From a virus: 64,000 nt of DNA. The stretch is taken from positions 1 through 64,000 of IMG/VR virus record IMGVR_UViG_3300027985_000700; one strand, 5' to 3'. This document shows positions 1,857 to 54,207 of this stretch, piece after piece. Both the position numbers and the translations under genes were made by a program. The notes beneath the pieces are model-generated. The model searched no databases. It saw nothing but the letters and a program-made list of their open reading frames with translations, and was not told the origin of the DNA. Numbering within the stretch: position 1 is the stretch's first letter; each line of letters opens with the position of its first letter.

Positions 1857-3042
1857 AGAATTAGAAGAATTACTTACAAAAGTTAAACAGTATGCTAAGG
1901 ACAGGGGAGACCTTGTTGCTTCAACACCTCATGTATTTGCTGTAATATTAAAAGAAAATAAAAAGTATTGTAATATGTTGGATATAGACTTTAGTGAATA
2001 TGAAACTATATTTAAGCTTGAATATCCAGTAACTGACGTTAATACTAAGAATGCAGTTGTAATTGATGATACATTACAAACTTATATAGAACTTAGTACC
2101 ACAGTAGCTGATTTACTTTATACCTTAATGACAGAACGTAATGATGGTATGGATTTACTATTATGTATAACATCTTCAAATCGTTGTATTAGGTTAACTG
2201 ACTCATTGTCAAAACAACAATCAACATTAAGAAATATGCCAAAATATTTAACTAACTTGAATACAAAAAAATATGTTACTAATCCAGCTATTGGAAGAGA
2301 AGTACTTTTGGAGGAAATTGAAAAAACATTACTTAAAATGAATAAACCAAATGTGTTATTAGTTGGTGAAGCAGGTGTAGGTAAAACTGCAGTTGTTGAA
2401 GGACTTGTGTATAGAATACAAAATGGAGAGGTTAGTAATAGGTTAAAAGATGCAATAGTGTTTGGTGTAGCAACTTCTACATTAGTAGCAGGAACTAAAT
2501 ACCGTGGTGAGTTCGAAGAAAGAGTGGATAATTTATGTAAATTCTTGTCAACAGTACCTAATTCAATTTTATTTGTAGACGAAATGCACACAACATTAAA
2601 TGCTGGTAAATCAGACGGTGCAATTGATATGGCTAATATACTTAAACCATATTTAGCTAGAGGTGAAATAAGAATGATAGGGGCTACTACTTTAACTGAA
2701 TCAGAAATAATTAAAAGTGACAGTGCTTATACTAGACGTTTTACAACTATGTTAGTAAAAGAACCACTACAACAAACAAGCTTGAAAATACTTGTACAAA
2801 GTTTACCTAAGTTTGAAAAATTCTTTGGGATTAAAATAGACGAGAACTTAATGCCTTACTTGGTAAAAGAAAGCAACAAACTTAATGGTAAGTTTCCAGA
2901 CGTATGTATAGATTTACTTGAAAACGTATGTGCTGATACTATATGGAATGAGGACAAGGACTTTAACAAAAAGGATATTGACCGTGTAGTAGAAAGACTT
3001 CTAGAAAAACAAGATATGTTAATAAAGGCAGGTGAAAAATAA
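1846..3042 (+). CDS. Single-ring Clp/HSP100-like AAA+ ATPase
   Basis: 398 residues. An N-terminal region (1-130) resembles a Clp N-domain. One AAA+ module follows, with Walker A GEAGVGKT (174-181), pore-loop-like GTKYRGEFE (about 217-224), Walker B ILFVDEMH (241-248) and an arginine finger in YTRRF. This is the D1 module of ClpA/ClpC; the second (D2) ring with the ClpP-docking loop is absent, so the protein is about half the usual size. It may unfold or remodel substrates by itself or alter host Clp machinery. The phage also has a ClpP-like protein at 25320, but nothing shows that the two interact. AAGGAGAG precedes the ATG. Confidence 0.85.
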   Translation: MKNKELEELLTKVKQYAKDRGDLVASTPHVFAVILKENKKYCNMLDIDFSEYETIFKLEYPVTDVNTKNAVVIDDTLQTYIELSTTVADLLYTLMTERNDGMDLLLCITSSNRCIRLTDSLSKQQSTLRNMPKYLTNLNTKKYVTNPAIGREVLLEEIEKTLLKMNKPNVLLVGEAGVGKTAVVEGLVYRIQNGEVSNRLKDAIVFGVATSTLVAGTKYRGEFEERVDNLCKFLSTVPNSILFVDEMHTTLNAGKSDGAIDMANILKPYLARGEIRMIGATTLTESEIIKSDSAYTRRFTTMLVKEPLQQTSLKILVQSLPKFEKFFGIKIDENLMPYLVKESNKLNGKFPDVCIDLLENVCADTIWNEDKDFNKKDIDRVVERLLEKQDMLIKAGEK

Positions 3043-3043
3043 A

Positions 3044-3361
3044 ATGTGTAGATATTGTACTTCTAACCTTAAACGAAGAAAACCAATACAAAAAGATAAA
3101 ACTAGATATATAAGGGTTATGCCTTCTAATAATGCAATACAAACTAATATATATTGGGATAATAATGACTATGGAGCACAGTTCTATATTAAGTATTGTC
3201 CAATGTGTGGTAGACAATTAGTAGGTAAACCAAGAAGTTTTAAACTAGTAAGACCTGTTAAATACACGGACCTAGCACAAGGATTGATTATGTGTAATAT
3301 AATAGTGTATGCTATGGTAATGTATGCAATATTATTGACTATATTTTTTGGAGGTAAATAA
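3044..3361 (+). CDS. Small membrane protein with zinc-ribbon cysteines
   Basis: 105 residues from the ATG at 3044; a GTG at 3032 is possible but overlaps the previous stop. An N-terminal CRYC and a CPMCGR pair 50 residues later form a four-cysteine zinc knuckle. The C-terminal 25 residues are a single hydrophobic helix, so the metal domain is probably membrane-anchored. Function unknown. Its stop overlaps the next start by one base. Confidence 0.65.
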   Translation: MCRYCTSNLKRRKPIQKDKTRYIRVMPSNNAIQTNIYWDNNDYGAQFYIKYCPMCGRQLVGKPRSFKLVRPVKYTDLAQGLIMCNIIVYAMVMYAILLTIFFGGK

Positions 3362-4092
3362 TGGAAAATAATGAATTAGAACCAAAAGTATTTTTTGACT
3401 ATTTAAAAAGTAAAAAACAAGGTATAACTGACGAAGACTTAACTAAGTTTTATGACGGTTGTTTACAACTTGTACATAAACATGAAATAACTGGACAAAA
3501 GAAAATAATTAATAAACTTGCATTTTTAGTTAATTGTGTAGACAGGGAAAGAGAGATAGTTAAACTAGGTATTAACACATTCGTATACAAGGACGATATT
3601 GAAGAGTATATTGACAATGTATCTAAAAACACTGTTAAAATAATAGAACTAGAAAACTACCCTAGAGAAATACCTGACGAGATTGTAAGTGTTATTGAAA
3701 AAACTAAAACTATATTTGATAAAATGTATGTAGTATTTACTGACTATACGGGTAGAGTTGAAAAACAAGTAGCTAAAGAACGTAGAGATAAAGACCCTAT
3801 ACTATTTGGAACATTTCAAAAGGAACTAAAAGGTGTACAAGGTCGTAACGTACAATATATTGTTAATGATAGGTTTTACTTTTTAGGAGATTGGGAAGAC
3901 GAATATTGTGATTTAACTATGGATAAGTTTTTAAATGAAGCTGGTAAAGAAAAATTAAAAACAATAGGTACACCAACTAATCCTGATTCAATTAAAGCTG
4001 AACTTAATAGACTTGACGCTGGTTTAAATATTACTACTCCTGAACCAAAACAAACTTGGTTTAAGAACATAACAAGTGTATTTAAAAAATGA
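3361..4092 (+). CDS. Hypothetical protein
   Basis: 243 residues, mostly charged and predicted soluble, with an acidic/aromatic segment (FLGDWEDEYCD) and a Pro/Thr-rich linker before a basic C-terminus. No family is recognised. It ends in TGA and overlaps the next gene by four bases, so the cluster 3044-4735 is translationally coupled. Confidence 0.65.
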   Translation: MENNELEPKVFFDYLKSKKQGITDEDLTKFYDGCLQLVHKHEITGQKKIINKLAFLVNCVDREREIVKLGINTFVYKDDIEEYIDNVSKNTVKIIELENYPREIPDEIVSVIEKTKTIFDKMYVVFTDYTGRVEKQVAKERRDKDPILFGTFQKELKGVQGRNVQYIVNDRFYFLGDWEDEYCDLTMDKFLNEAGKEKLKTIGTPTNPDSIKAELNRLDAGLNITTPEPKQTWFKNITSVFKK

Positions 4093-31108: not shown

Positions 31109-31801
31109 TCACTCTCCTTTATATTTCCAAATATAACCCAAACCTGTCTTGTTTACACCTTGTAAACACTTACCAATAGTATCAACACAACAATTATTAT
31201 CTTTTGCCGCTTGTACTATACTTGGATAACTATTTAAAAATTTTCCTTCTTTACTATATTGTTCTATTTCTTTACCCATAATTAATTTACAGTTTTTATG
31301 TGCTAGTATTTCTGGTAACAAATAAACCTCGTGTTCATATAACCATACATACCCCTTACATAATATTTTATTACGACAAGCATAATTAATACTATTATAA
31401 TGAACCTTCATTTGTTTGGCAGCTATACCACTACTTTCAAAAATGTTTATTTGGTTACCATTTAAATCGTATTGTAAAACTGTTTTACTTCTTTTGTTGT
31501 CCTTACCACTATTAACAGGACAAGCATCCCCACCTATTGTTGAATTAAAACCTTTATTATAACTATTATATAAATCAACATAGTAAATTTCTTTTTGTTT
31601 TAACTCTTTCATTGTGTTTGCATTATCTATAACTTCCCACGTAAAGTAATCTTTTGGATATTTACTTAGAGCCTTTTGGAATTTGTGGTTCTTTTTAAGG
31701 TCGTAATAATGTTTTTTAATACGTTCTTTTAAGGTATGGGTAGTTATTCCAATATAAACTCTTCCATCTTTATGTGTGCATTTGTAAACAATGCCTTCCA
31801 T
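31109..31801 (-). CDS. GIY-YIG homing endonuclease
   Basis: 230 residues from the ATG at 31801, 7 bases after AAAGGAG. The GIY-YIG domain is intact (IVYKCTHKDGRVYIG, then ERIKKH, FTWEVID and the catalytic-Glu-like LKQKEIYYVDLY). Two NUMOD-type DNA-binding repeats follow (FESSGIAAKQM and YPSIVQAAKDN). It has its own promoter and ends with AAAGGAGAG, which doubles as the ribosome site for dpdA. This cassette-like position matches the HNH gene before queE. Confidence 0.88.
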   Translation of the reverse strand: MEGIVYKCTHKDGRVYIGITTHTLKERIKKHYYDLKKNHKFQKALSKYPKDYFTWEVIDNANTMKELKQKEIYYVDLYNSYNKGFNSTIGGDACPVNSGKDNKRSKTVLQYDLNGNQINIFESSGIAAKQMKVHYNSINYACRNKILCKGYVWLYEHEVYLLPEILAHKNCKLIMGKEIEQYSKEGKFLNSYPSIVQAAKDNNCCVDTIGKCLQGVNKTGLGYIWKYKGE

Positions 31802-31826
31802 ATTATTCTCCTTTCTCATTACTTAA

Positions 31827-32880: not shown

Positions 32881-33630
32881 TTATAATATTATATTACCTT
32901 CACTTGGTTTAATGTCTCTTTGTAATAAGTAAAGGTATGCATCTTTAATATCATTTTCTTCTTTAGCACCACGACCATATGTACCGTTGTCAATTTGTGT
33001 CATAACAAGTTTTAAGTAAGCCATAACGTCACTTAATACATCGTCACTAAATTTCATACCATTTAGCATAAATGCAATAACTTTTCTAACACATGGTTTA
33101 CATTTAAAACAAGGTTTTCCATCGTGTGGGAAGTAACAACTAAAACTGCCGTTCCATGCTTCTTCTAGTGTACCACCTTTGTCTAAATACATTTTAAGTA
33201 ATTCACGTTTAGTGTATTCTTTAAAGTCTACATTAATACGTATATTACGTTCTTCAGTCCAGTGTTGTTTTTGGTACAAGAAACTAAATAGTTCTCCTGC
33301 CTTTTGTGCGAACTCAGGACTCTTATCTAAAACTCTGTCCCCGTAAGTTGCACCCAAACATATTTCATCGCCATAGTTAGTTGCTATAGCAGTAAAATAT
33401 AAGTTACGTAAAGGAATTATTTTATCTTCCCTTTCAATACTATGTAGGTTAAGTACATCTTTTAGTACAATAACATCACTATCTAGTTTACTTATTTCTT
33501 CTTTACTATAGCTACTATTAATATCTATGTATAGTTTTACATCAGGTTCCCATATTTTACTTATTAACCAACTATCCATACCACCACTATAAAGTAGTAC
33601 TTTTTTACTTTTTGGGTTAAAGTCTGTCAT
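32881..33630 (-). CDS. queC: 7-cyano-7-deazaguanine (preQ0) synthase
   Basis: 249 residues from the ATG at 33630, 8 bases after AAAGGGG. The PP-loop is LLYSGGMDS, followed by GATYGDR and the zinc site SCYFPHDGKPCFKCKPC. QueC converts 7-carboxy-7-deazaguanine to preQ0 using ATP and ammonia. It separates QueC from QueD/E/FolE by 6-8 kb, but all parts of the pathway are present. No QueF-like reductase was seen, so preQ0 itself is probably the base inserted in DNA. Confidence 0.88.
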   Translation of the reverse strand: MTDFNPKSKKVLLYSGGMDSWLISKIWEPDVKLYIDINSSYSKEEISKLDSDVIVLKDVLNLHSIEREDKIIPLRNLYFTAIATNYGDEICLGATYGDRVLDKSPEFAQKAGELFSFLYQKQHWTEERNIRINVDFKEYTKRELLKMYLDKGGTLEEAWNGSFSCYFPHDGKPCFKCKPCVRKVIAFMLNGMKFSDDVLSDVMAYLKLVMTQIDNGTYGRGAKEENDIKDAYLYLLQRDIKPSEGNIIL

Positions 33631-33904
33631 AACCATTACCCCTTTCATTATCGGCTTTTATTTTACCTTTAATATTTTTTAATCTTTGTTCAATACGTTT
33701 TATAATAACATTTTGTGCTTCCTCCATTGTGGCATACATAAAGTTTTCGTTAGTGTGTGTTGTACCGTTAGACACAATTTCATAACAAAGATTATTGTCT
33801 CTATCAATAGCCATACCCGTAACAGTATATTTATAAATGTTATCTTTATACCATAATTCATCGATTACGTATACATCTTGTCCTAGTTTAAATTTTGGTT
33901 CCAT
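33617..33904 (-). CDS. Hypothetical protein
   Basis: 95 residues, small beta-rich N-terminal part (KFKLGQDVYVID) and a Lys-rich helix at the end. It overlaps queC by 14 bases. Function unknown. Confidence 0.6.
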   Translation of the reverse strand: MEPKFKLGQDVYVIDELWYKDNIYKYTVTGMAIDRDNNLCYEIVSNGTTHTNENFMYATMEEAQNVIIKRIEQRLKNIKGKIKADNERGNGYDRL

Positions 33905-33905
33905 A

Positions 33906-34136
33906 TTATCTTTCTCCTTTTAAAATTAAATATTCATCTACAGCTCTAATAGATTCTACTACTTTATCAAGTAGTTCTATTAGTTTCTTTTCTTGGTTAA
34001 TATCTAAGTTGTTGTGTTGTATACCCATAACATTAACTTCATTATCAACCATATAATCTACTTTTTTATGGTCAGTAATAAATGTTGTATTACCCCACAA
34101 TCTAATATCGTAATCAGTTACACTTCTTTTTTCCAT
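33906..34136 (-). CDS. Hypothetical protein
   Basis: 76 residues, ending with a helix (KLIELLDKVVESIRAVDEYL). Tight spacing to both neighbours. No family recognised. Confidence 0.6.
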   Translation of the reverse strand: MEKRSVTDYDIRLWGNTTFITDHKKVDYMVDNEVNVMGIQHNNLDINQEKKLIELLDKVVESIRAVDEYLILKGER

Positions 34137-34147
34137 ATTAATCCTCC

Positions 34148-34567
34148 TTATTTAAAGTATGCTTTATTATGGTAGTCAACTAATTCATACTGTGTTAAAT
34201 CAGTACCAATTAATTCTTCAGGTGTTTTAGTAGGGTTACTTACAATACATTTAACAACGGCGTGTAAACCGTAATGTAATTGTAAACCTATTGTTTTACT
34301 TGTAATGCCTGTAATGTCACGTATGTCTTCCCATACTTCTTCATTACCGTAAGGTCTTTTACCGTCCATTTCCATAGCACCAAACTCACACCCATTATTA
34401 CTTATAAAGTATGCACGTCTTAAAAGTAATAAATGATAGTTAGTTAATACGTGTGTATTTATTTTTTCTTCATTTTTGTTAATAAGGTTAAGTTCTTTTA
34501 AAACCTCATCTCCATATTCATCTTGTATTAAAGCAATTGCCCTTTTGGCTTCTTTACTTAATTCCAT
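34148..34567 (-). CDS. Hypothetical protein
   Basis: 139 residues, starting after AAAGGAGGG. Helical N-terminus; contains MDGKRPYGNEEVWEDIRDI. Unknown family. First gene of the queC operon after its promoter. Confidence 0.62.
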   Translation of the reverse strand: MELSKEAKRAIALIQDEYGDEVLKELNLINKNEEKINTHVLTNYHLLLLRRAYFISNNGCEFGAMEMDGKRPYGNEEVWEDIRDITGITSKTIGLQLHYGLHAVVKCIVSNPTKTPEELIGTDLTQYELVDYHNKAYFK

Positions 34568-34588
34568 ATTACCCTCCTTTATATTACT

Positions 34589-34617
34589 ATTATACCATAT
34601 TAATTATAGAAAGTAAA
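34589..34617 (-). promoter_or_regulatory. Sigma-A promoter of the queC operon
   Basis: TTTACT (34617-34612), 17 bp ending in TGG, TATAAT (34594-34589). Confidence 0.78.
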
Positions 34618-34636
34618 GGACTTATTAAATAAGCCC
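34609..34636 (-). terminator. Possible terminator
   Basis: GGGCTTAT pairs with ATAAGTCC (one G-T) around three bases and is followed by TTTACTTT. It overlaps the stop of the gene at 34625 and the -35 box of the next promoter. Confidence 0.45.
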
Positions 34637-35071
34637 TTGTTTTTCAAGTTTTTCTAGTACTTCGTTACGTTTATTGGTATTCCATACCATATTCATATGT
34701 CTATTACCAACTTCATTACGTACTTGATTTCTTGCAATTTTTCTATTATAAACAGTAAATTGTTTATTTTTACCACTACCAACAACTTCAACACCTAGTT
34801 TTGTTTTAAGTTGTTTACCATTTTTATCCCTGTTAAAAGGGTATATAAGTGTGTTCTTACCTAGTGTTTTACAAACATTTAAAGCATGGTTTAACTTTAG
34901 TTGTCTAATGGTATATTTAACTAGTTCCTTAAGGTTGTTAACTACTGTGTCTTCATTAGTAGTTGCATCTTTAATACTAACTGGTTCAATACCTTCCTTC
35001 GTTAGTTGTTCTTTAATTTCGTCAAGATCTGCATAAACATATCCAGCTGTTCTTAATTTTTTGTCGTCCAT
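34625..35071 (-). CDS. Hypothetical protein
   Basis: 148 residues, basic C-terminal half (RKIARNQVRNEVGNRHMNM) that could bind nucleic acid. No family recognised. Two bases after hpt. Confidence 0.6.
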   Translation of the reverse strand: MDDKKLRTAGYVYADLDEIKEQLTKEGIEPVSIKDATTNEDTVVNNLKELVKYTIRQLKLNHALNVCKTLGKNTLIYPFNRDKNGKQLKTKLGVEVVGSGKNKQFTVYNRKIARNQVRNEVGNRHMNMVWNTNKRNEVLEKLEKQGLI

Positions 35072-35072
35072 A

Positions 35073-35615
35073 TTAATTCTCCTCTTTTATCATAATGTGA
35101 TTTAAGTTACGTTTTAAACCATTATCATCTAAACCATAACCATATACAAATAAGTCATCTATTACATATAACTTCCAATCAGGTATATATACTTTTTTAC
35201 TAGGGTCTATTGCTTTATCTAAAAGTACACACGTATTAATACTTACAGGATTCATTTTCATAAGTTCTTCAGTAACTGCTTTTAACGTAACCCCAGTATC
35301 ACAAATGTCGTCCATTATAATAACATGACAACCACCCACATCAGGTAATTTAGTTTCTATCTTTAATTTACCTTGTTTGTTGTCAGTGTAGCTTTTTACC
35401 TTTATAAATTCAAGTGTATGATCAGTAGTTAACTTACGTGTTAAGTCACTTACAAAGTGCACACTACCGTTTAAAATACCAATAATAACAACTTTATTTT
35501 CTTCGCTTGCTTGTATTTTTAATTTTAAATACTCGTCAATATCTATAGCTAAATATTTTAAATCGTATTGTAGTTCCTTACTATTTATTAAAACATTTTT
35601 ATTCTTTTTAAACAT
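35073..35615 (-). CDS. hpt: Hypoxanthine phosphoribosyltransferase
   Basis: 180 residues from the ATG at 35615 (TAGGAGGAA upstream). The PRPP-binding loop VIIMDDICDTGVTL, the GILNGSVHF hydrophobic loop and the C-terminal VYGYGLDDNG-type metal segment identify it. It salvages hypoxanthine or guanine to IMP/GMP. Supply of guanine nucleotides could serve DNA synthesis and GTP for the FolE-to-preQ0 route; that link is inference. Confidence 0.88.
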   Translation of the reverse strand: MFKKNKNVLINSKELQYDLKYLAIDIDEYLKLKIQASEENKVVIIGILNGSVHFVSDLTRKLTTDHTLEFIKVKSYTDNKQGKLKIETKLPDVGGCHVIIMDDICDTGVTLKAVTEELMKMNPVSINTCVLLDKAIDPSKKVYIPDWKLYVIDDLFVYGYGLDDNGLKRNLNHIMIKEEN

Positions 35616-35625
35616 TTTGTTCCTC

Positions 35626-35865
35626 CTAGTACCTACGTACATCTTTTATTCTTATATAGTCTCCACTACATTTTTGTAGTGTAATAATTTCACGTAAAAT
35701 AAGTTCTCCAAATGTAATTATAAGATACCAACTTGTTTCGTTTATTGGCAAGTTGGTAACCTTATACCCTACATTTTTGGTGTTAAGTATTAAACTATTA
35801 TATTCGTCTACTGTTAATATTTTATTTACTTTTGGATACCATAAATCTTTAGCTTTATAACTCAT
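35626..35865 (-). CDS. Hypothetical small protein
   Basis: 79 residues from the ATG at 35865, which overlaps the polymerase stop; longer in-frame starts up to 35910 exist inside the polymerase gene. Small basic protein with a beta-strand pattern. Function unknown. Confidence 0.5.
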   Translation of the reverse strand: MSYKAKDLWYPKVNKILTVDEYNSLILNTKNVGYKVTNLPINETSWYLIITFGELILREIITLQKCSGDYIRIKDVRRY

Positions 35866-38125
35866 CTTGTATGTCTTCTCCATACCAACGTTCGTTAATT
35901 TCACCATCACATTTAATAGGCATCTTTAGTTTAATATTAGCAGCGTCTTTCATTATTTGTACCATTATACTTAACGCCTCCTTAGCATTTTCTTTTGGTA
36001 CTTCCCCAATTACTTCATCATGTATTGTAAGTAATGTCTTGTACCCAAGTTCACGTAATCTTTCATTTCTGTATAACATAAGTATTGCTACTTTAGTTAT
36101 ATCAGCACTACTACCTTGTATTGCACTATTTAGTATTTGTCTTTGTGCCTGTGCTATAGCTGTACCATTATCAATAATTTTAACTCTAAAATGTTGGGCT
36201 ATTTCAGGCATTCTTTTTCTAGCCTCCCATTTGTTAAATTGGTTTAACATATTACGGGCACTTTCACATAATGTAGGATCTTGTCCAGTAATACTAAATT
36301 GTGGTAAGTTATAATCAGGTAGTCTTCTTTTTCTTCCCCATATAGTTTTAACAAAACCTTTTTGTCTAACTAATTCTTGAAGTTGTTGTTCAAAAACTTT
36401 AATTGAAGGATAAGTTTCGTAGAAACGGTTAATAATATCCTTAGCTTCATCAACAGACGTTTTTATTTGTTCTGCAATACTTGCAGCCCCACGCCCATAT
36501 AAAATACCAAGTAAAACACTTTTAACATAACCTCTACGTTGTTTAGCTTCAGGACTAAATTTTTCTAAACATTCTTCATAAGGTAGGTTGTATATTTTAC
36601 TAGCCATGTCACTATATAAATCTTTACCTGTTGTATAGGCTTCAATCATATGTGGGTCTTGGGCTAGAAATGCAGTAAGTCTTGGTTCAATTTGGCTATA
36701 GTCAGCTCCTATAAAATAATAACCTTCTTTTGGTATAAACATTTTACGTATGTCTGTATTATGGGAAGGTATATTTTGTAAGTTAGGGTCACTACTACTA
36801 AATCTACCTGTATCAGCTCCATATTGGTTAAACTTACCGTGTACACGTCCAGTATTAGGACTAATACTTTTATTAGGTAGTTTATCAATATAAGTTCCAA
36901 GTAATTTTTTTAATCCTCTATATTCAAGTAACTTAGTTATCATTTGGTTAAGTTCAGGGTATGCCTTACCAACTTTTGCCAATTCTTTTTTACCAACACT
37001 TTCCTTTTTAAGTCCTACTTTTAAATAATCTACTTTTAATATTTTAAATAATAAAATATTAAATTGTGTAGGACTATCTAGGTTAACAGGGTCATTAAGT
37101 TTACTATATAACTCAGGTTGTTCCTGTTTAAATTGTGGTAAATAAGGGTTTATTAAGTTACTAACAAGTTCATTTAATTCTATAAAACAAGCATCTATTT
37201 GTTCAGTATACTTAACACTTAACTCATGTGCATATTCTATATCAATACTAACACCAGTATCCTCCATACTTGCTACTGCCTCAGTAAGTGGGGCTTCTAT
37301 TTGGGTAAATAAATAACCAGTATCTACTAAATCTTGTTCTATACAAGGCTCACTAACACCATCTAAAAATGGTAATTGGAATTTGTATAGTTCGTATGTA
37401 GCCCACGCATCAAATGCTGCATAGTAATACACACGGTTAGGGTCTAGTATGTCAAAGGTTAAATGTCCAAATAGTTTTTTATAATTATCAGGGTCTATTG
37501 TTTTCTCAGGTGTACCTAAACAATATTTTTCCCATAACCATTTTAAGGCATGAGAACTGTCGTTTTCGTTTAAAAACTTACCTGCAATAAGACAGTCCCA
37601 ATAAGGTCTTATGTATTCATTTCCTTTGTAGGCATTGTTTATGTATCTAAGGTCAAAGGTAGCATTGGCAAATAATACTTTTAATTTACCATTTCTACTT
37701 AAATCTATAATACTTTTTATAAAGTTAGTTGCGTCTATATTAGGGTAGTTTAAATGTCCAACAGGTACATACAAACTTGTCTCCCCCTCAGTGTATAAAC
37801 ACAAACCAACTAGTTTGTCGTCAATTGGGTTTAAGCCAGTTCCTTCTGTATCTAAAGATAAAACGCCTGTTTGAATTATCTTTTGTAAGTAATCATTCAG
37901 GCGTTGTTCATCTTTACATAATTCCAATACCACGTCAGGTCTTTTATGTTGTAGCCTTGTTACGTACTCGTCCATACGTTTATAACATTCTTCAACATCT
38001 TGTACCCTTGTTCTAACTACACGTACTTGTTTAGGCTTTTTAGCTTTATCAATTACTTCTTTAGCAGTTAGTTTTGGTGTTGGTTGTTTAACGGCAATGC
38101 CAGCAAATAAACTATTTTGGTTCAC
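35855..38125 (-). CDS. polA: Family A DNA polymerase (Pol I-like)
   Basis: 756 residues. A 3'-5' exonuclease domain starts near residue 90 (LSLDTEGTGLNP, later FANATFDLRYINN and the YAAFDAW segment). The polymerase domain has motif A DYSQIEPRLTAF, motif B RRGYVKSVLLGILYG and motif C TIHDEV. There is no 5'-3' exonuclease domain. It is the replicative polymerase, expected to work with the phage clamp and clamp loader. Confidence 0.95.
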   Translation of the reverse strand: MNQNSLFAGIAVKQPTPKLTAKEVIDKAKKPKQVRVVRTRVQDVEECYKRMDEYVTRLQHKRPDVVLELCKDEQRLNDYLQKIIQTGVLSLDTEGTGLNPIDDKLVGLCLYTEGETSLYVPVGHLNYPNIDATNFIKSIIDLSRNGKLKVLFANATFDLRYINNAYKGNEYIRPYWDCLIAGKFLNENDSSHALKWLWEKYCLGTPEKTIDPDNYKKLFGHLTFDILDPNRVYYYAAFDAWATYELYKFQLPFLDGVSEPCIEQDLVDTGYLFTQIEAPLTEAVASMEDTGVSIDIEYAHELSVKYTEQIDACFIELNELVSNLINPYLPQFKQEQPELYSKLNDPVNLDSPTQFNILLFKILKVDYLKVGLKKESVGKKELAKVGKAYPELNQMITKLLEYRGLKKLLGTYIDKLPNKSISPNTGRVHGKFNQYGADTGRFSSSDPNLQNIPSHNTDIRKMFIPKEGYYFIGADYSQIEPRLTAFLAQDPHMIEAYTTGKDLYSDMASKIYNLPYEECLEKFSPEAKQRRGYVKSVLLGILYGRGAASIAEQIKTSVDEAKDIINRFYETYPSIKVFEQQLQELVRQKGFVKTIWGRKRRLPDYNLPQFSITGQDPTLCESARNMLNQFNKWEARKRMPEIAQHFRVKIIDNGTAIAQAQRQILNSAIQGSSADITKVAILMLYRNERLRELGYKTLLTIHDEVIGEVPKENAKEALSIMVQIMKDAANIKLKMPIKCDGEINERWYGEDIQDEL

Positions 38126-38835
38126 TAGAACATTTTAGCTGGTGAATTTGTATTGTTTGTTTGTGTAGGTGTTGTAGGCATAACAATATTAGGGTTAACA
38201 TTAAATTGTGTTGTTTGTGGTTGAACATGTTGTGAATATGCATTCATTATATTAGTACTTGTTTGGTTGGTGTTTAGGTTTAATGTACCTTGTGCTGCTT
38301 GAATCATTTCTTCTTCAGTTAACTCAAGTACAAAACCTTTGTGTCCATCAACTATTTTTTTACGTTCAGGTAAGTTAGGTACTGCACTATTAATAGCTGA
38401 TACCACAGGTGATATAAAGTATTTAGTGTCCTTACTACCTCTATTACCTTGTCTTGTAATGCTATATGGAATCTTATTTAAAGCTCCATTTTGGTTCATA
38501 AATACTATTAATTGTTCAATATGGTTTTTACCTCTATCCCAAATTAATACTTCTTCTGTACCTTCTTTTACAAGTTGAATCATAGCTCTTAACATTGGTT
38601 TATAACCAGAACGTGCTAATGCGTCGTTGTCACTGTTTTGTTTTACATATCTTTCCTTGTCTCCAATTTTAATTTTGTAAACAATAAACCAGTCCAATTC
38701 GTTAGGGTTATCCCCATATAAGAATCTAACCACGGCACTGTCACCGTTGTTTTGTAGGTTAAAGAAACTTGTACCTCCATTGTTACCATATTTTTTTAAT
38801 GCATCTTCAAGTGATAAGTTTGTGTTGTTGTTCAT
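38125..38835 (-). CDS. Probable single-stranded DNA-binding protein
   Basis: 236 residues. The N-terminal ~165 residues look like a phage SSB core (SFFNLQNNGDSAVVRFLYG and YFISPVV). The last ~60 are Gln/Asn/Thr/Pro-rich and disordered, like the tail of many SSBs, ending in SPAKMF. It sits directly upstream of polA in the same operon. The call is from composition and position more than from motifs. Confidence 0.65.
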   Translation of the reverse strand: MNNNTNLSLEDALKKYGNNGGTSFFNLQNNGDSAVVRFLYGDNPNELDWFIVYKIKIGDKERYVKQNSDNDALARSGYKPMLRAMIQLVKEGTEEVLIWDRGKNHIEQLIVFMNQNGALNKIPYSITRQGNRGSKDTKYFISPVVSAINSAVPNLPERKKIVDGHKGFVLELTEEEMIQAAQGTLNLNTNQTSTNIMNAYSQHVQPQTTQFNVNPNIVMPTTPTQTNNTNSPAKMF

Positions 38836-38840
38836 ATTTT

Positions 38841-39275
38841 CTAATCCTCCTCTGTGTAAGTTGCGAAACTTGTTGGTGTTTCGTATAATTTAATTTCTGT
38901 TACCTTCATACCTACTGGCAATGCCTCATTTATATCTTTAAACATAATACGACTCATGTTTTCACAAGTAGTTCTACAACCTATTACTTTATTTTTGTAA
39001 CCAAGTTCTTGGATATATTTTAAAATAGGTTCGTCACCACAAGCAATAAATGCGTGGTCATATTTTGATAAGATAGCTTCTTCTACGATAGATTTTAAGT
39101 TTTTAAAATCTATTATCATACCCTCTTTAGGGTGGGCTGTAATACTTTCAACTACTGGACCTGTTAAGGTTACAAATAGTTTATAAGTATGTCCATGAAT
39201 ATTTTTACATAAACCATCATGATTTAGTAATTGGTGAGAACAGTCAAAACTGTACTCTTTTGTTACGGTTAACAT
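38841..39275 (-). CDS. queD: 6-carboxytetrahydropterin synthase
   Basis: 144 residues. Zinc ligands appear as DCSHQL and NIHGHTY, the pterin-anchoring Glu as KLYETP, and the catalytic DHAF element is intact. QueD converts dihydroneopterin triphosphate (from FolE) to 6-carboxytetrahydropterin, the second step to preQ0. It heads the operon that also encodes the SSB-like protein and polymerase. GGGAGGAA precedes the ATG. Confidence 0.9.
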   Translation of the reverse strand: MLTVTKEYSFDCSHQLLNHDGLCKNIHGHTYKLFVTLTGPVVESITAHPKEGMIIDFKNLKSIVEEAILSKYDHAFIACGDEPILKYIQELGYKNKVIGCRTTCENMSRIMFKDINEALPVGMKVTEIKLYETPTSFATYTEED

Positions 39276-39381
39276 ATTATTCCTCCCTTTAATAAGTTGT
39301 AGCCCCCCACCAAACTACATAATACTGTACCCATTATTAATGGTTAACTAACCACCATGTCAACAGTATCCCAATAAATTA
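39276..39381 (-). promoter_or_regulatory. Structured leader of the queD/polA operon
   Basis: The ~100-nt leader can fold with ATACTGT paired to ACAGTAT. Inside it GGTTAGTTAACC forms a hairpin that competes with CCATTAATAATGG; a GTAG/CTAC hairpin with a G-rich loop follows. It could be a riboswitch or an operator. It does not match the preQ1 class I pattern as I know it. A TTGACA lies in the leader with TTAATA 17 bp downstream, a possible second, weaker promoter. Confidence 0.4.
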
Positions 39382-39410
39382 ATTATACCACAATCTTGTT
39401 AGAATGTAAA
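39382..39410 (-). promoter_or_regulatory. Sigma-A promoter of the queD/polA/hpt operon
   Basis: TTTACA (39410-39405), 17 bp ending in TGG, TATAAT (39387-39382). Confidence 0.8.
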
Positions 39411-39416
39411 TACTTT

Positions 39417-39545
39417 TTAACAACTTATGAGTTGTTTATATAAATCATAAGCCACACTCCAACCAAGAAATGCAGCAAGTGTTGTAATAAGGGCTATGAC
39501 AATAGCAGCTACCATTACGGCAAACATTTTTTCATCTTCGCTCAT
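39417..39545 (-). CDS. Small single-pass membrane protein
   Basis: 42 residues: acidic start (MSEDEK), hydrophobic helix at about 7-28, short cytosolic tail. AAGGAGGAT lies just upstream of its ATG. Last gene of the queE/folE operon. Function unknown. Confidence 0.6.
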   Translation of the reverse strand: MSEDEKMFAVMVAAIVIALITTLAAFLGWSVAYDLYKQLISC

Positions 39546-39557
39546 ATGTAATCCTCC

Positions 39558-40244
39558 TTATTTAATTGCTTGTAAAAATCTTTCTTCTAAGTGTTTATCA
39601 GTTCTAAATACACCTCTTGTACTTATAGTAACTGTACTACTATCAAATGGTGCTTCAACTCCTCTGGCTGTCATACAAGTATGTGTTTCTTCTAAACAAA
39701 CAATTACACCTTGTGCGTCCATTTCTTCCATTAAAGCATTTGCTATTTGATCACTTAGTCTTTCTTGTAGTTGGAAACGTTTAGCGTAACCTTCTACCAT
39801 TCTAGGTATTTTACTTAAACCAACTACTTTTTTATTAGGTAAATAACCAATACTTACATAACCATAAACAGGTAATACGTGATGTTCACAAACACTACGG
39901 CATTCAATACGTTTAACAATTACAATATCGTCATTACCACTATCTTTAAAGTTATAATCTAGGTCATCGTCATCTAAGTTAAATTGTACTTCTAAGTAGT
40001 CTTTAGGATTTTCACAATAACCTCTTGTCATTTCAAGCCAAGCTTTAACTACTCTAAAAGGTGTGTTTTTCATACCATTACTTTCACTATCACCACCACA
40101 AATGTCAATAAGTTTAGCAATACTAGGCATGATTTCGTTTTCTATACTTTCCATTATATCGTTATGGTCACCACTGCCTTTAATAATAACTCTATTTATG
40201 AGTAGTTTATTTATTTTTTCACGTTGTTTTTCATTTAATTCCAT
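39558..40244 (-). CDS. folE: GTP cyclohydrolase I
   Basis: 228 residues. Zinc and catalytic residues lie in CRSVCEHHVLP and EETHTCMTARG; GLSKIPRMV and the FQLQERL helix are intact. It converts GTP to dihydroneopterin triphosphate, the first step of 7-deazaguanine synthesis. The first ~30 residues and an acidic insert (DDDDLDYNF) are phage-specific. It lies ten bases after queE. Confidence 0.94.
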   Translation of the reverse strand: MELNEKQREKINKLLINRVIIKGSGDHNDIMESIENEIMPSIAKLIDICGGDSESNGMKNTPFRVVKAWLEMTRGYCENPKDYLEVQFNLDDDDLDYNFKDSGNDDIVIVKRIECRSVCEHHVLPVYGYVSIGYLPNKKVVGLSKIPRMVEGYAKRFQLQERLSDQIANALMEEMDAQGVIVCLEETHTCMTARGVEAPFDSSTVTISTRGVFRTDKHLEERFLQAIK

Positions 40245-40253
40245 ATTTCCTCC

Positions 40254-41021
40254 TTACACGCCCTGCCTATTACCCCATACCAAAGTATGAAGTTGTAACA
40301 TAACATAAACGTCTTCCATATCACTTTCTAAAACCTTGGTAACAAGTTTTTCATAATCTTGTATTACCCTGTTTCGTACATTTAATATATCTTGTTCCCC
40401 AACGTCAGTGTTACCAACATTTAAGTACAATTTTATACCAGTTCTATTTGTACGTAGTTTAATATCTTGTATTAAGTTATAGTATCTACGAGCAAATTCA
40501 AAATCCTCGTCGTTAAATACTGGTATTTTAATTGTAACAGGTAAATTAAAACGTACTTTAGGATTATACATTAACCAATTACCTACGTTATCAATTACAT
40601 CAGGTTGTCCACTAGATGGTGCTTTTGGGCTAATAACCACATTGTCTACCTTGTCTAGCCAATCAGGTAATTTACTACCTTGTGTTTCAACATCCACTTT
40701 AATGTCAGCTTCATGTAATGCATTAATAACTTTACTAAAGTCATATAAACAAGGGTTACCACCTGTTAGTACAACATTTTTTGTATTTGTGTCTTGACAT
40801 TTAATTATTAATTCAAATAGTAGTTCATCTTCAGTATACACTTTTGTGTCATTATTTCTCTTCCAAGCAAACTTACTATCACACCAACTACAATTAAAAT
40901 CACACCCTACAACTCTAACAAATAAAGTTTTTTTACCTGTGTTAGGACCTTCTCCTTGTATTGTAGGACCTCAACCGAACACTTCGGCAACAGGTATTCT
41001 TACTGTTCTTTCGGTATTCAT
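40254..41021 (-). CDS. queE: 7-carboxy-7-deazaguanine synthase QueE, interrupted by an in-frame TGA
   Basis: Radical SAM enzyme converting carboxytetrahydropterin to 7-carboxy-7-deazaguanine. The ATG at 41021 (SD inside the HNH gene's end; ATGA overlap) encodes VRIPVAEVFG, then TGA at 40973-40971, then GGT and the conserved PTIQGEG in the same frame, with radical-SAM cysteines in GCDFNCSWC. Relatives such as B. subtilis QueE read EIFGPTIQGEG with nothing between G and P. Hopping from the GGT before the stop to the GGT after it would give exactly that, a 253-residue protein. A 5-bp hairpin (CCGAA/TTCGG) ends one base before the TGA. No UGA-reading tRNA was found here. Without recoding, only an N-terminally truncated form from 40841 could be made, lacking the cluster cysteines. 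Confidence 0.8.
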
Positions 41022-41587
41022 ATGTTATCACTCTCCTTTATATGTTTCCACGAACGGTTGTTATAAATATCCCATATAGTAGCATATTTTATATTAGGAT
41101 ACTTTTTACAAACGTCTTTTAAACATATCTTTTTATATTTCATATTTTTAATGTCTTGTACTATATTAACATTAAGTAAACAGGCTGGGTTGTCTACCCC
41201 TAACCGATTACGTAAATGAGTTCGTATAGCGTGTTGTGTATTTTCTTTAGCGGTTACCCATTCTAAGTTGTTAACAAAACAATTATTTTTGTTGCCATCA
41301 ATATGGTTAACCTGTGGTAAATTATCAGGATTTGGTATAAAAGTTTGGGCTACCAATATGTGAACTAAATGTTGTTGTTCCTTACCATCTTTACATAAGG
41401 AAACAACGGGGTATCCGTTAGGTTTAAATGTATTTTTCTTTATAACACCTTTAAACGTACGAAGTCTACCCATACTATCTGTGTAAGTTCTATCAAGACT
41501 TCTTACTGTTCCATAATTAGATATCTCATACCAACCTTCATAGTTAGGAATCGGTTTAAATATTTCTGCTACTGGTATTTTAACCAT
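41018..41587 (-). CDS. NUMOD4/HNH homing endonuclease whose N-terminus copies QueE
   Basis: 189 residues after AAGGAGGAG. The NUMOD4 motif (PNYEGWYEISNYGTVRSL) is followed by an HNH (VAQTFIPNPDNLPQVNHIDGNK at about 82-103 with the N-N-x-x-x-N-LEWVT tail) and a C-terminal helix-turn-helix. Before NUMOD4 it begins VKIPVAEIF, nearly identical to the QueE start VRIPVAEVF encoded downstream but with AT-rich codons. The enzyme therefore probably inserted into queE near codon 15 and queE was rebuilt behind it. Own promoter at 41614. Confidence 0.88.
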   Translation of the reverse strand: MVKIPVAEIFKPIPNYEGWYEISNYGTVRSLDRTYTDSMGRLRTFKGVIKKNTFKPNGYPVVSLCKDGKEQQHLVHILVAQTFIPNPDNLPQVNHIDGNKNNCFVNNLEWVTAKENTQHAIRTHLRNRLGVDNPACLLNVNIVQDIKNMKYKKICLKDVCKKYPNIKYATIWDIYNNRSWKHIKESDNI

Positions 41588-41613
41588 TTTTACTCCTCCT
41601 TAACTATAAATAA

Positions 41614-41642
41614 ATTATACCATATTAACTTCTGAAAGTAAA
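41614..41642 (-). promoter_or_regulatory. Sigma-A promoter of the HNH/queE/folE operon
   Basis: TTTACT (41642-41637), 17 bp ending in TGG, TATAAT (41619-41614). Confidence 0.8.
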
Positions 41643-50936: not shown

Positions 50937-51012
50937 TGGTACTCCGTGCGGGATTTGAACCCGCAATTACCACCTTGAAAGGGTGGTGGCTTAACCGTTC
51001 GCCTAACGGAGC
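50937..51012 (-). tRNA. tRNA-Glu(UUC)
   Basis: Loop CTTTCAA on CCACC/GGTGG, acceptor GCTCCGT/ACGGAGT, CCA encoded. Confidence 0.9.
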
Positions 51013-51017
51013 AATTA

Positions 51018-51094
51018 TGGTACACCCTGTAAGACTCGAACTTACGACCTTCTGCTTGTAGAACAGATGCGCTAACCAACTGTGCTAAGGGTGC
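51018..51094 (-). tRNA. tRNA-Val(UAC)
   Basis: Loop TCTACAA, acceptor GCACCCT/AGGGTGT, A73, CCA encoded. Confidence 0.9.
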
Positions 51095-51205
51095 ATGACG
51101 TGGCTTCTTTATTTGTGTACCTTTATTACAGGGTATTCGATGTACCCACCTGAAGCCGATCCCCACTTCATCTAGTTTATGTACGGGGGATTTATTTTTA
51201 ATTTA
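51095..51205 (-). other. Spacer with a minimal tRNA-like hairpin pair
   Basis: Between tRNA-Val and tRNA-Arg. GGCTTC pairs with GAAGCC at the ends of a ~56-nt segment that encloses a 5-bp stem with 7-base loop (GGGTA, CATCGAA, TACCC), which looks like an anticodon arm without D- and T-arms. A second hairpin (GATCCCC/GGGGGAT) follows. Function unknown. Confidence 0.3.
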
Positions 51206-51282
51206 TGGTGTATCTGAAGGGACTCGAACCCATAATCTTTTGGTTCGTAGCCAAGTGCTTTATCCAGTTAAGCTACAGATAC
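51206..51282 (-). tRNA. tRNA-Arg(ACG)
   Basis: Loop CTACGAA, acceptor GTATCTG/CAGATAC, CCA encoded. A34 would need host TadA to become inosine. Confidence 0.9.
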
Positions 51283-51285
51283 ATA

Positions 51286-51399
51286 TTAACCACGTTTTTT
51301 CTTTTTATTAGTTTTACCTTTACTAGTAGTAGTTGCTATTTTAGCAAAGTGTGCACTAAACTTTTCTTGTTTGTGTTTACTACCTTTTCCTTTTGCCAT
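51286..51399 (-). CDS. Small basic protein
   Basis: 37 residues, about one third Lys/Arg (MAKGKGSKHK start, NKKKKRG end), after AAGGAGTG. Located between tRNA genes. It may bind RNA, but this is only composition. Confidence 0.55.
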   Translation of the reverse strand: MAKGKGSKHKQEKFSAHFAKIATTTSKGKTNKKKKRG

Positions 51400-51423
51400 A
51401 TTAATCACTCCTTAATTATATAA

Positions 51424-51500
51424 TGGTGCGCCACCGAAGACTCGAACTTCGGACCTCTCACGTATCAGGCGAGTACTCTAACCAACTGAGTTAATGGCGC
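51424..51500 (-). tRNA. tRNA-Ile(GAU)
   Basis: Loop CTGATAC, acceptor GCGCCAT/GTGGCGC, CCA encoded. Confidence 0.9.
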
Positions 51501-51503
51501 AAG

Positions 51504-51578
51504 TGGTGCATCCAGAAAGATTCGAACTTTCAACCTCTACATTAAAAGTGTATTATTCTACCATTGAATTATGGATGC
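51504..51578 (-). tRNA. tRNA-Lys(UUU)
   Basis: Loop CTTTTAA, acceptor GCATCCA/TGGATGC, CCA encoded. Confidence 0.9.
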
Positions 51579-51579
51579 G

Positions 51580-51747
51580 TTATGTATCTTGTGCACCCTT
51601 ATACTTTCGTTTTCTAGGTATTAGATACTTTAATGACTTATGTACTTTACCACCCTTCATGACTTGTTCTTGATGCCATAAATTGGGTAACTTAGCATAA
51701 TCTATTTTGTTTGTAGGTAATTTTATAACTTGTTTTTTCTTACTCAT
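51580..51747 (-). CDS. Small basic protein
   Basis: 55 residues, Lys-rich (MSKKKQVIKL start; PRKRKYKG near the end), after GAGGTGA. Second basic mini-protein in the tRNA array. Unknown function. Confidence 0.55.
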   Translation of the reverse strand: MSKKKQVIKLPTNKIDYAKLPNLWHQEQVMKGGKVHKSLKYLIPRKRKYKGAQDT

Positions 51748-51770
51748 TTTAATCACCTCTTATATATTTA

Positions 51771-51846
51771 TGGTGGAGAATAAGGGACTCGAACCCTTGA
51801 CCTACTGCGTGCAAGGCAGTTGTTCTACCAGCTGAACTAATTCCCC
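51771..51846 (-). tRNA. tRNA-Ala(UGC)
   Basis: Loop CTTGCAC, acceptor GGGGAAT/ATTCTCC, CCA encoded. Confidence 0.93.
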
Positions 51847-51850
51847 ATAA

Positions 51851-51928
51851 TGGTCGGGATAGAGGGATTCGAACCCCCAACGCCTCCGCTCCAAACGGAG
51901 AGTTCTACCAAATTGAATCTACATCCCG
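51851..51928 (-). tRNA. tRNA-Pro(UGG)
   Basis: Loop TTTGGAG on CTCCG/CGGAG, acceptor CGGGATG/TATCCCG, CCA encoded. Confidence 0.9.
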
Positions 51929-51952
51929 ATATAGTTAGTTAAATAAAATATG

Positions 51953-52234
51953 CTATCTTATTCTTTCTATTGTTTGACCTTGGTTGTTTAATAAAAATAC
52001 TCCTGCATACAAACTTGGTCTACTTTCTTTGTCTAATATTTTAAGTTCTACTTCTTCATCAGTTGGTATTCTATTTAATGGTAATGTATATAATAATTCC
52101 TTACTTCTATACATATTTATAAAATCCCTATTTGACGCATCTGTAAATGTGTTTACATTATCTATATCGGCATATATGTGCTTATGTCCATCTATAGACA
52201 ATCCTTTACTATATTCAACTAATTCTACTATCAT
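51953..52234 (-). CDS. Hypothetical protein inside the tRNA array
   Basis: 93 residues, acidic, predicted alpha/beta. Ribosome site AAGAGATAAG is weak. A short direct repeat of CTAT/CTAA units lies just upstream. Function unknown. Confidence 0.55.
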   Translation of the reverse strand: MIVELVEYSKGLSIDGHKHIYADIDNVNTFTDASNRDFINMYRSKELLYTLPLNRIPTDEEVELKILDKESRPSLYAGVFLLNNQGQTIERIR

Positions 52235-52280
52235 TCTATCTTATCTCTTTTCTATCTAACTATCTATCTAACTAACTATT

Positions 52281-52357
52281 TGGTGCCAGTAACAGGACTT
52301 GAACCTATAATCCCACGGGTATGAACCGTGTGCATTAACCATTTGTGCTATACTGGC
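52281..52357 (-). tRNA. tRNA-Met(CAU), elongator type
   Basis: Loop TTCATAC, acceptor GCCAGTA/TACTGGC, CCA encoded. It could be elongator Met or, if lysidine-modified, Ile(CAU); the separate initiator is at 52439. Confidence 0.85.
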
Positions 52358-52360
52358 ATT

Positions 52361-52434
52361 TGGTTGCAGTTGCTAGGATTCCAACCTAGTATCTTCCTAT
52401 AACGAGGCGTGCGTGCATCACACTCTCAACTACA
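52361..52434 (-). ncRNA. Degenerate tRNA-like RNA
   Basis: Good acceptor (TGTAGTT/AACTGCA), A73 and CCA, and a T-stem (CTAGG/CCTAG), but the T-loop is TTGGAAT instead of TTCGAAT. The D domain is shortened and no normal 5-bp/7-base anticodon arm forms (CCT, CGTTAT, AGG at best). Anticodon not assignable. Confidence 0.45.
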
Positions 52435-52438
52435 TATA

Positions 52439-52514
<76 letters not shown>

Positions 52515-52521
52515 ATATAAT

Positions 52522-52598
52522 TGGTACTCGTTGATGGACTTGAACCACCGACCGCTCGCGTATAAGGCGTTTACTCTAACCAACTGAGCTAAACGAGC
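52522..52598 (-). tRNA. tRNA-Ile(UAU)
   Basis: Loop CTTATAC, acceptor GCTCGTT/AACGAGT, CCA encoded. Reads AUA, abundant in this genome. No sense-codon conflict seen. Confidence 0.88.
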
Positions 52599-52670
52599 AA
52601 TTAGCGTACCACTTTGATATAAGGTCCAAAATGTTTCCAACTGTAAACTCCCTATGGGTTACCATAATTT

Positions 52671-52753
52671 TTGAACTGGGGAGGACTCGAACCTCCATAC
52701 CCAAACTTGTTGTGTTGTACGTACAACGCTTTTCCAATTAAGCTACCTGTTCA
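52671..52753 (-). ncRNA. tRNA-like RNA without encoded CCA
   Basis: Acceptor TGAACAG/CAGTTCA, D-arm (AGCTTAATTGGAAAAGC) and T-arm (GGAGG, TTCGAGT, CCTCC) are normal. The anticodon region is a near-palindrome (GTTGTACGTACAAC) that leaves no standard 7-base loop; a 9-base loop between GTTGT and ACAAC is the alternative. CCA is not encoded, so the phage CCA-adding enzyme would be needed. Confidence 0.5.
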
Positions 52754-52759
52754 TATAAT

Positions 52760-52832
52760 TGGTGGAGTCATTAGGATTCTAACCTAAATTGAAGGCAACG
52801 CGTGACTTACTTCTAGTAACATACTTTTCCCC
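52760..52832 (-). ncRNA. Degenerate tRNA-like RNA
   Basis: Ends in CCA with a T-stem (TTAGG/CCTAA) and altered T-loop TTAGAAT; only four acceptor pairs (GGGG/CTCC). D and anticodon arms are not recognisable; a TTACTAGAAGTAA hairpin occupies their place. Confidence 0.4.
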
Positions 52833-52840
52833 ATATAAAT

Positions 52841-52941
52841 TGGTGCGGACGGGAGGGATCGAACCTCCAAACTTGTGTACTTAAAGCCTGCCTTAAAAGT
52901 CATGAACAATTAAGGGTGTATACCCATTTCACCACGACCGC
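52841..52941 (-). ncRNA. tRNA-like RNA with enlarged anticodon loop
   Basis: 101 nt: acceptor GCGGTCG/CGTCCGC (one mismatch), CCA encoded, T-arm GGAGG, TTCGATC, CCTCC. The anticodon-position stem CCTTAA/TTAAGG closes a 13-base loop (TTGTTCATGACTT) instead of seven, and the variable region is long. No amino acid assigned. Confidence 0.5.
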
Positions 52942-53587
52942 ATTTTGTGTTACCTCACTTGTTTTTTAAAAGGTTATAGAGTAACTATTTACTGTTATTT
53001 CCCTTTAGTACCTTATAGGCACTGTACTAAATAATACATTAAAGTTTTAAATTAATCATTACGCTTAGATTAATTCTTTGCGTTATGGCAGGTATCTCCA
53101 TTTGTATTTATCAGCTTAACAAATAAAATAAAAATAACTTTTACCCGCTGTATTTTTATATTTTATTTAGTACACTAACTACAAGAGTTAATGTGTATAG
53201 TAATGCCTCGGACTCATTACTAAATTTCCTACACTAAGGTATTACCTTAGACCGAGTAGCATATTGTAGAGTTATTAACTCCTTTGTAAGATGTAAACAT
53301 ATTGCAATGTTTTATGTTTTTAGTCAGCTGTTTTACAAATATTAAACATAAACTCATACATCTTACAAAGCAAAGAACAATTTTATTTGCTCTTGGCGGG
53401 GCAGTAGGATTTTACCTACCGTTAGTATTACTACTAACACCTTTGTCCCCCGCCAGCAACAAACAAATGTTGCCCCTAGTTTACAGGTTATACGCTTCCT
53501 CTGTTGTAGCTCATTCTGCGTTAACCATAATTTCGGTCGATACTTTGCTACAAGGGTTTACCAGCATCTTTCCCTTAATTTTTAATA
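52942..53587 (-). ncRNA. Second large structured noncoding RNA (~650 nt) inside the tRNA array
   Basis: No gene is supported here, but base-pairing is dense on the minus strand. TGGCGGGG pairs with CCCCGCCA around two inner hairpins (TTAGTAGTAATACTAA and TAGGTAAAATCCTA, near 53395-53455). TTGTAAGATGTA pairs with TACATCTTACAA (53284-53372). CTAAGGTAATACCTTAG (near 53235) and AATTAATCTAAGCGTAATGATTAATT (near 53050) are further hairpins. GC content in the stems exceeds the surroundings. Location beside tRNAs and size fit ornate phage RNAs such as ROOL or GOLLD, but I cannot confirm a family. Confidence 0.5.
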
Positions 53588-53677
53588 TGGCGCCAGGAGA
53601 GGGATTCGAACCCGCAGTACGCTTTCACGTACACTGGTTTTCAAGACCAGCTCTTTCACCAATTCAGACATCCTGGC
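53588..53677 (-). tRNA. tRNA-Ser(UGA)
   Basis: Loop CTTGAAA, class II variable arm, acceptor GCCAGGA/TCCTGGC, G73, CCA encoded. Confidence 0.92.
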
Positions 53678-53838
53678 ATCTCTTCGCCAAGGAACCTTTG
53701 TAAGTCACGTTTTTGTCTTGTTCTTACATAGCCACTTCCCATATTACGCTCACGTTTTCTATTTTTTGTATTTCTTCCGTGACCAAAGGCTGAGTAACAA
53801 CCAAGTACTTTTTTAACGTAACTATTTTTTGTTTTCAT
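53656..53838 (-). CDS. Small basic protein overlapping tRNA-Ser
   Basis: 60 residues from the ATG at 53838 after AAAGGAGG. Very Arg/Lys-rich (GRNTKNRKRERN, YVRTRQKRDLQRF). Its last codons run 22 bases into the tRNA-Ser gene, so processing of the tRNA would remove its stop codon. Third basic mini-protein in the array. Confidence 0.55.
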   Translation of the reverse strand: MKTKNSYVKKVLGCYSAFGHGRNTKNRKRERNMGSGYVRTRQKRDLQRFLGEEMPGCLNW

Positions 53839-53880
53839 GTAAATTACCTCCTTTAGAAGATAATCACACCCTTTCGTTAT

Positions 53881-53955
53881 TGGTTGGAAAGGTGGGAATC
53901 GAACCCACATGCTTAGATTCACAATCTAATACGTTAACCATTACGTCACTAACCA
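53881..53955 (-). tRNA. tRNA-His(GUG)
   Basis: Loop TTGTGAA on TTAGA/TCTAA, T-arm GTGGG, TTCGATT, CCCAC, CCA encoded. Two mismatches in the middle of the acceptor stem are unusual. Confidence 0.82.
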
Positions 53956-53956
53956 C

Positions 53957-54131
53957 ATATTGGAGTCAGGTTTATTTCTGCACTTGGAAAACCCTTCACG
54001 AAAACCATCCAAAAATTTTTACATAAAGCTCAACGCCCTATATTGCGATTTAACCGAATCGACATCAGTACTTTATAATTTATTAAATCTTTGTATCTTC
54101 AATGGAATAATGAGTTCCACTTGTTGTTAAT
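53957..54131 (-). other. Spacer without a recognised gene
   Basis: 175 bases. A hairpin CGATT/AATCG and a TGGA/TCCA pairing of its ends are visible, but no cloverleaf or gene can be supported. Confidence 0.4.
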
Positions 54132-54207
54132 TGGAGAAAGTGATGGGATTCGAACCCACGTAATCTGCTTGGAAGGCAGATAGACTAGACCACTGTCCTA
54201 CACTCTC
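54132..54207 (-). tRNA. tRNA-Gly(UCC)
   Basis: Loop CTTCCAA, acceptor GAGAGTG/CACTTTC, U73 as expected, CCA encoded. First RNA after the array promoter. Confidence 0.92.

Follow-up and report, generated by a model that had tools for sequence, protein, structure and literature searches.

In phage T4, gene 60 is a split gene associated with a homing endonuclease and carries a 50-nt interruption, in which a stop codon follows a glycine codon and ribosomes skip to a matched glycine codon; this interruption may protect against the nuclease (PMC5009743). Apart from gene 60, hardly any natural ribosomal bypass is known from bacteria or phages. The T4 endonuclease and the bypass sequence were reportedly found by Bonocora and colleagues, in 2011, to form one mobile cassette. 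Synthetic stop-hops have been constructed in which matched codons flank a stop codon and 9 nt are read as one amino acid, and a 2016 review described natural in-frame stop-hopping as not known (PMC5009743). Mobile ORFs of fungal mitochondria, in Allomyces atp6 and in Glomus atp6, atp9, cox2 and nad3, bring with them a diverged replacement gene end (PMC3630166).

Our study examined a queE gene in a virus record of 108,396 bases with 30% G+C, of which a stretch of 64,000 nt, referred to here as the window, forms part. The locus resembles T4 mobA/gene 60 in having a homing endonuclease in a conserved gene, the downstream part of which is re-started (PMC5009743, PMC11194080). The two also share an in-frame stop directly after a glycine codon, with a matching glycine codon where coding would resume (GGT TGA GGT, 40976-40968). 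Unlike T4 mobA/gene 60, the interruption here lies at the split point itself, and the native 5′ end appears to have been captured by the endonuclease, with a diverged copy replacing it. The gap is 3 nt and in frame, compared to 50 nt in T4 gene 60, and the matched codon is GGU rather than GGA. In T4 a signal lies 25-30 residues before take-off, whereas only 16 codons precede the stop in queE, which leaves no room for a nascent-peptide signal of the T4 type. The bypass is experimentally supported in T4, whereas in queE it is proposed. The 9-nt GGU-UGA-GGU layout is also that of the synthetic stop-hop sites, although those were constructs.

The fungal mobile ORFs and the present locus both pair a homing endonuclease gene with a duplicated, diverged version of one gene end and displace the native end. 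However, the fungal ORFs are mitochondrial, encode LAGLIDADG or GIY-YIG enzymes and replace the C-terminal end, whereas the present one encodes an HNH enzyme, replaces the N-terminal end of a phage gene and has a stop codon at the junction. The free-standing NUMOD4-HNH proteins of Bacillota phages have the same domains as the enzyme studied here, but the 13 compared do not carry a copy of the start of the downstream gene.

Results

The HNH homing endonuclease ORF (41018..41587, minus strand, as are all features of the locus) encodes 189 aa and reads MVKIPVAEIFKPIPNYEGWYEIS. It matched the Pfam models NUMOD4 (4.4e-15; residues 8-64, 41396..41566) and HNH_3 (6.6e-08; residues 74-117, 41237..41368), both over the curated cut-off, and was up to 54% identical over part of the protein to that of Enterococcus phage KEN20. 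Its start, MVKIPVA-EIF, is the native QueE start, QueE homologues from phages and bacteria reading (K)IPVAEIFGPTIQGEG or close variants. The sequence-only reading of this DNA had pointed to an N-terminus shared by the HNH protein (VKIPVAEIF) and QueE (VRIPVAEVF), and this was borne out, with 7/9 residues agreeing and two conservative changes; the underlying DNA segments, termed copy 1 and copy 2, were identical at 19/27 nt. The RBS of the old queE start (GGAGGAG, 41593..41599) now precedes the HNH ORF. A promoter-like site upstream of that start (TTTACT-17-TATAAT with TG, 41614..41642) would now drive the same ORF, but it matched the consensus at only 10/12 positions and such sites were no commoner than in shuffled sequences.

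The N-terminal pair of HNH and queE scored 39 (BLOSUM62). By comparison, the first 12 aa of each of the 13 related phage HNH proteins gave best scores of 14-25 against the DNA just downstream, and the best pair among the N-termini of neighbouring ORFs in this genome scored 33, one exceptional pair of adjacent ORFs aside (65.5-66.1 kb, score 55). The likeness of the HNH and queE N-termini exceeds chance. Not all of it is exclusive to QueE. The NUMOD4 segment lies almost at the start of the 13 related proteins (M..EIWKDI or similar, apart from one that is annotated with an unrelated leader of greater length), and the usual start of the endonuclease family is EIWKPI, so that EIF is common to the family and QueE. 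Because residue 8 is the first to be covered by the NUMOD4 model, EIF is attributable to both proteins, and therefore only MVKIPVA is exclusively QueE-derived. The EIF similarity may have been used in joining HNH to queE. A NUMOD4-HNH gene that starts with VKIPVAEIF far from queE, put forward earlier as the counter-evidence to look for, was found neither among the 13 related HNH proteins nor by pattern scan in viral contigs, where the degenerate pattern PVAE[IV]FKP had two matches, neither of them an HNH gene. The exceptional ORF pair (record 65514-66116, plus strand) is antisense to a 752-aa gene and probably reflects a repeat within it.

The sequence-only reading had placed the insertion in queE right after codon 10, with the original 5′ end now fused to the endonuclease and a replacement start behind it, and our data agree on each point. 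Removing 587 nt in silico (41557..40971) rejoined an uninterrupted queE in frame, and the restored QueE was 63% identical, with a gap-free join, to that of L004, the contig with the nearest phage queE homologue. Copy 1 (41558..41584), corresponding to native queE codons 2-10 and now the HNH N-terminus, was identical to the L004 queE at 23/27 nt, compared to only 16/27 for copy 2, the diverged queE 5′ segment (40977..41003). Copy 1, the closer of the two, most likely represents the original queE start, and copy 2 most likely arrived with the cassette or diverged within it. The GC-richer codons described for the queE copy (GCC, GTG and TTC) are present; a foreign queE 5′ end borne by the cassette could account for copy 2 as well as recoding in place. 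The rebuilt queE, a radical SAM QueE of 255 codons including the TGA (40254..41021), has its own RBS (AAAGGAG, 41033..41039) inside the HNH 3′ end, and the HNH stop codon overlaps its ATG (41021) as ATGA. Taken as a whole, the insertion of a homing cassette with a captured 5′ end and a replacement start is highly probable.

The gene order on the minus strand is primase, HNH, queE, folE and queD-like, with a queC-like gene further along. The folE (GTP cyclohydrolase I, 39558..40244), queD-like (PTPS, 38841..39275) and queC-like (32881..33648) genes belong to the same pathway as queE. Despite their presence beside queE (window 32881-40244, minus strand), a TGT-family gene (PF01702) was not found in the record. 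Elsewhere in the window, 25 tRNA genes covering most amino acids are clustered at 48115-54207 (minus strand), and a second homing endonuclease, of the GIY-YIG type, lies upstream of unrelated genes (31109-31819, minus strand); in an all-pairs comparison, the N-terminus of this ORF was unlike those of its neighbours. A third, shorter ORF resembling NUMOD4-HNH (record 83993-84358, plus strand; positions 3993-4358 of contig L012) was 37% identical to the queE-associated HNH.

The queE frame from 41021 reads MNTERTVRIPVAEVFG*GPTIQGEG and is thereafter open to 40254. The TGA (40971..40973) is codon 17 and stands between two GGT codons, codon 16 (40974..40976), the proposed take-off codon, and codon 18 (40968..40970), the proposed landing codon, which corresponds to the single glycine of homologues. 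Neither this in-frame TGA nor the hairpin around the preceding codon had featured in the sequence-only reading, and the TGA means that the replacement 5′ end cannot simply be translated. All 86 queE homologues compared (80 bacterial and 6 phage) have a single glycine at the junction and no extra codons; a hop from GGU to GGU would therefore yield exactly the conserved sequence, whereas readthrough would add two residues.

When a residue was assigned to the stop codon, homology to a solved QueE and the GPTxQGEG and CX3CX2C motifs classed the gene as queE. The 238 codons behind the TGA are intact and keep all motifs, as seen in alignment to the solved QueE 5tgs. Compared to L004, dN was 0.300 and dS 1.248, giving a dN/dS of about 0.24, which indicates purifying selection on queE but mostly reflects the time before the insertion. 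Judged by these features, the frame, TGA aside, looks like a working gene.

The take-off GGU is part of a hairpin, GCCGAA-GUG-UUCGGU (40974..40988), predicted at -5.2 kcal/mol with the UGA and built from the GC-richer codons GCC GAA GTG TTC GGT. Equal stability was found in 1.2% of synonymous versions generated with the codon usage of this genome (3% for a wider window) and was reached by 0/86 homologues. Folding of an 84-nt window was not unusual compared to synonymous versions, and the wider structure gave z = -1.66 against dinucleotide shuffles, by which measure the hairpin is modest. The evidence for a role of the hairpin at take-off is suggestive.

Other ways of decoding the frame were also considered. 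An alternative code in which TGA encodes Trp was rejected, as TGA ends 10/102 long ORFs, and reading the genome with code 4 completed no other recognisable gene; the standard code applies in this phage. Among the phage tRNA genes, none with the anticodon UCA was found. Re-initiation behind the stop would have to use the next start, a GTG at 40841, with loss of GPTIQGEG and the cluster cysteines. In Escherichia coli QueE, Q13 and E15 bind the substrate (PMC11142719), and by motif alignment these probably correspond to the Q and E of QGE here; re-initiation cannot rescue QueE, because the substrate-binding segment and the cluster cysteines are lost. A +1 or -1 frameshift at the stop would lead out of the queE frame. 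Three more sites in the genome have a codon, a stop and the same codon with a long open frame behind, at least one of which is a normal termination codon followed by an ATG start.

The junction was also sought in other viruses. An exact 14-mer of the junction occurred in 86 stretches of viral contigs, of which none passing the context filter reads as queE, and a degenerate EIFG-stop-GPT pattern had one match in viral contigs, which was unrelated. Neither the neighbouring primase nor folE led to a close relative in IMG/VR. Very near records may be left out of searches of this kind. A phage queE relative in another contig (L010, IMGVR_UViG_3300028797_000104, 3001-3717) has seven in-frame stops under table 11. 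One of these, in GPTI*GEG, occupies the Gln position of QueE, as though a stop codon were read as Gln in that phage.

Discussion

The best explanation of these observations, which we put forward tentatively and at somewhat less than an even chance, is that a homing cassette brought queE a replacement 5′ end and that QueE is made by a +6 in-frame stop-hop past the UGA. The NUMOD4-HNH gene would have inserted in queE between the TTT of codon 10 and the GGT next to it, where AEIF of QueE resembles the usual EIW-K start of the endonuclease itself. Joining at this likeness would have let the endonuclease take over the queE promoter region, RBS and first ten codons. The cassette would have brought a new RBS, an ATG and a diverged queE 5′ segment behind itself, so that queE would restart as a downstream gene with the target sequence altered. 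The extra bases and altered codons would shield the locus from its own endonuclease, as has been proposed for T4 gene 60, and the cassette as a unit would be mobile.

Expression of QueE from the replacement start would then depend on the ribosome passing the UGA. Peptidyl-tRNA-Gly would leave the first GGU, skip the UGA and pair with the second GGU, perhaps with help from the hairpin containing the take-off codon. The product would be VRIPVAEVFGPTIQGEG, exactly the canonical junction (VFGPTIQGEG), and ribosomes that do not hop would end after 16 residues. The presence of the folE, queD-like and queC-like pathway genes counts in favour of a hop, whereas the occurrence of the junction in one genome, with no second example, counts against it, and the GGU match may have arisen as a side effect of junction formation. 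Taken by itself, a ribosomal hop over the UGA is possible but we would stop short of calling it probable. That it represents a natural in-frame stop-hop which operates routinely and is kept as the immunity part of a homing cassette is a slightly bolder proposal, and we advance it with corresponding caution.

The explanation that survives next best involves the same cassette, with the UGA read through by near-cognate tRNA-Trp or a host suppressor in a fraction of the product. The two routes predict different junction peptides, VAEVFGPTIQGEG with no extra residue for the hop and VFG-X-GPT for readthrough. Low-level readthrough of UGA is common in bacteria. In an AlphaFold model of the readthrough form (mean pLDDT 88.5) the two extra residues lie just after strand 1 and cause no break, so the readthrough product might fold. 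However, the phage tRNA set has no UCA anticodon, an insertion at the junction is absent from every one of the 86 homologues and readthrough has no need of a matching GGU. We consider readthrough unlikely.

It is also rather unlikely that the insertion killed queE, which would make the replacement a failed or decaying repair that yields only the 16-codon peptide, with host QueE used or QueE dispensed with. The stop at codon 17, the absence of a usable start behind it and the failure of the junction to appear in a second genome would all be expected of a dead gene. Against this, the frame beyond the stop is preserved for 238 codons with every motif, the new 5′ end comes complete with RBS, ATG and a conserved peptide, and the rest of the pathway is retained.

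An error or minor variant in the metagenome assembly, in which the TGA stands for TGG or another codon and the gene simply has a two-residue insertion, is improbable. The locus is known from a single contig and one base change would remove the stop, but the gene would still have two extra codons, which sit precisely at the edge of the cassette and occur in no homologue, and no other gene appears to be broken by TGA. A spliced intron of 587 nt carrying the HNH ORF and joining copy 1 to the queE body can be dismissed as very improbable, for although the HNH ORF is in frame with a 5′ segment that ends in T and excision would restore a perfect QueE, Rfam gave no group I or II match even at a permissive threshold, the ORF occupies nearly all of the 587 nt, the insert ends in A rather than G, and splicing gives no reason for a second RBS, ATG and queE-like segment.

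In summary, the locus represents a homing gene that appears to have taken over its host gene's 5′ end and supplied a diverged replacement, the comparable cases that we found being of 3′ ends in fungal mitochondria. If the hop over the UGA is true, queE would be a second, minimal and independent case of the T4 mobA/gene 60 principle. It would also provide a minimal 9-nt system for the study of take-off and landing, in which queE activity is easily scored through queuosine in tRNA, and ribosomal bypasses would then be a recurring by-product of homing cassettes.
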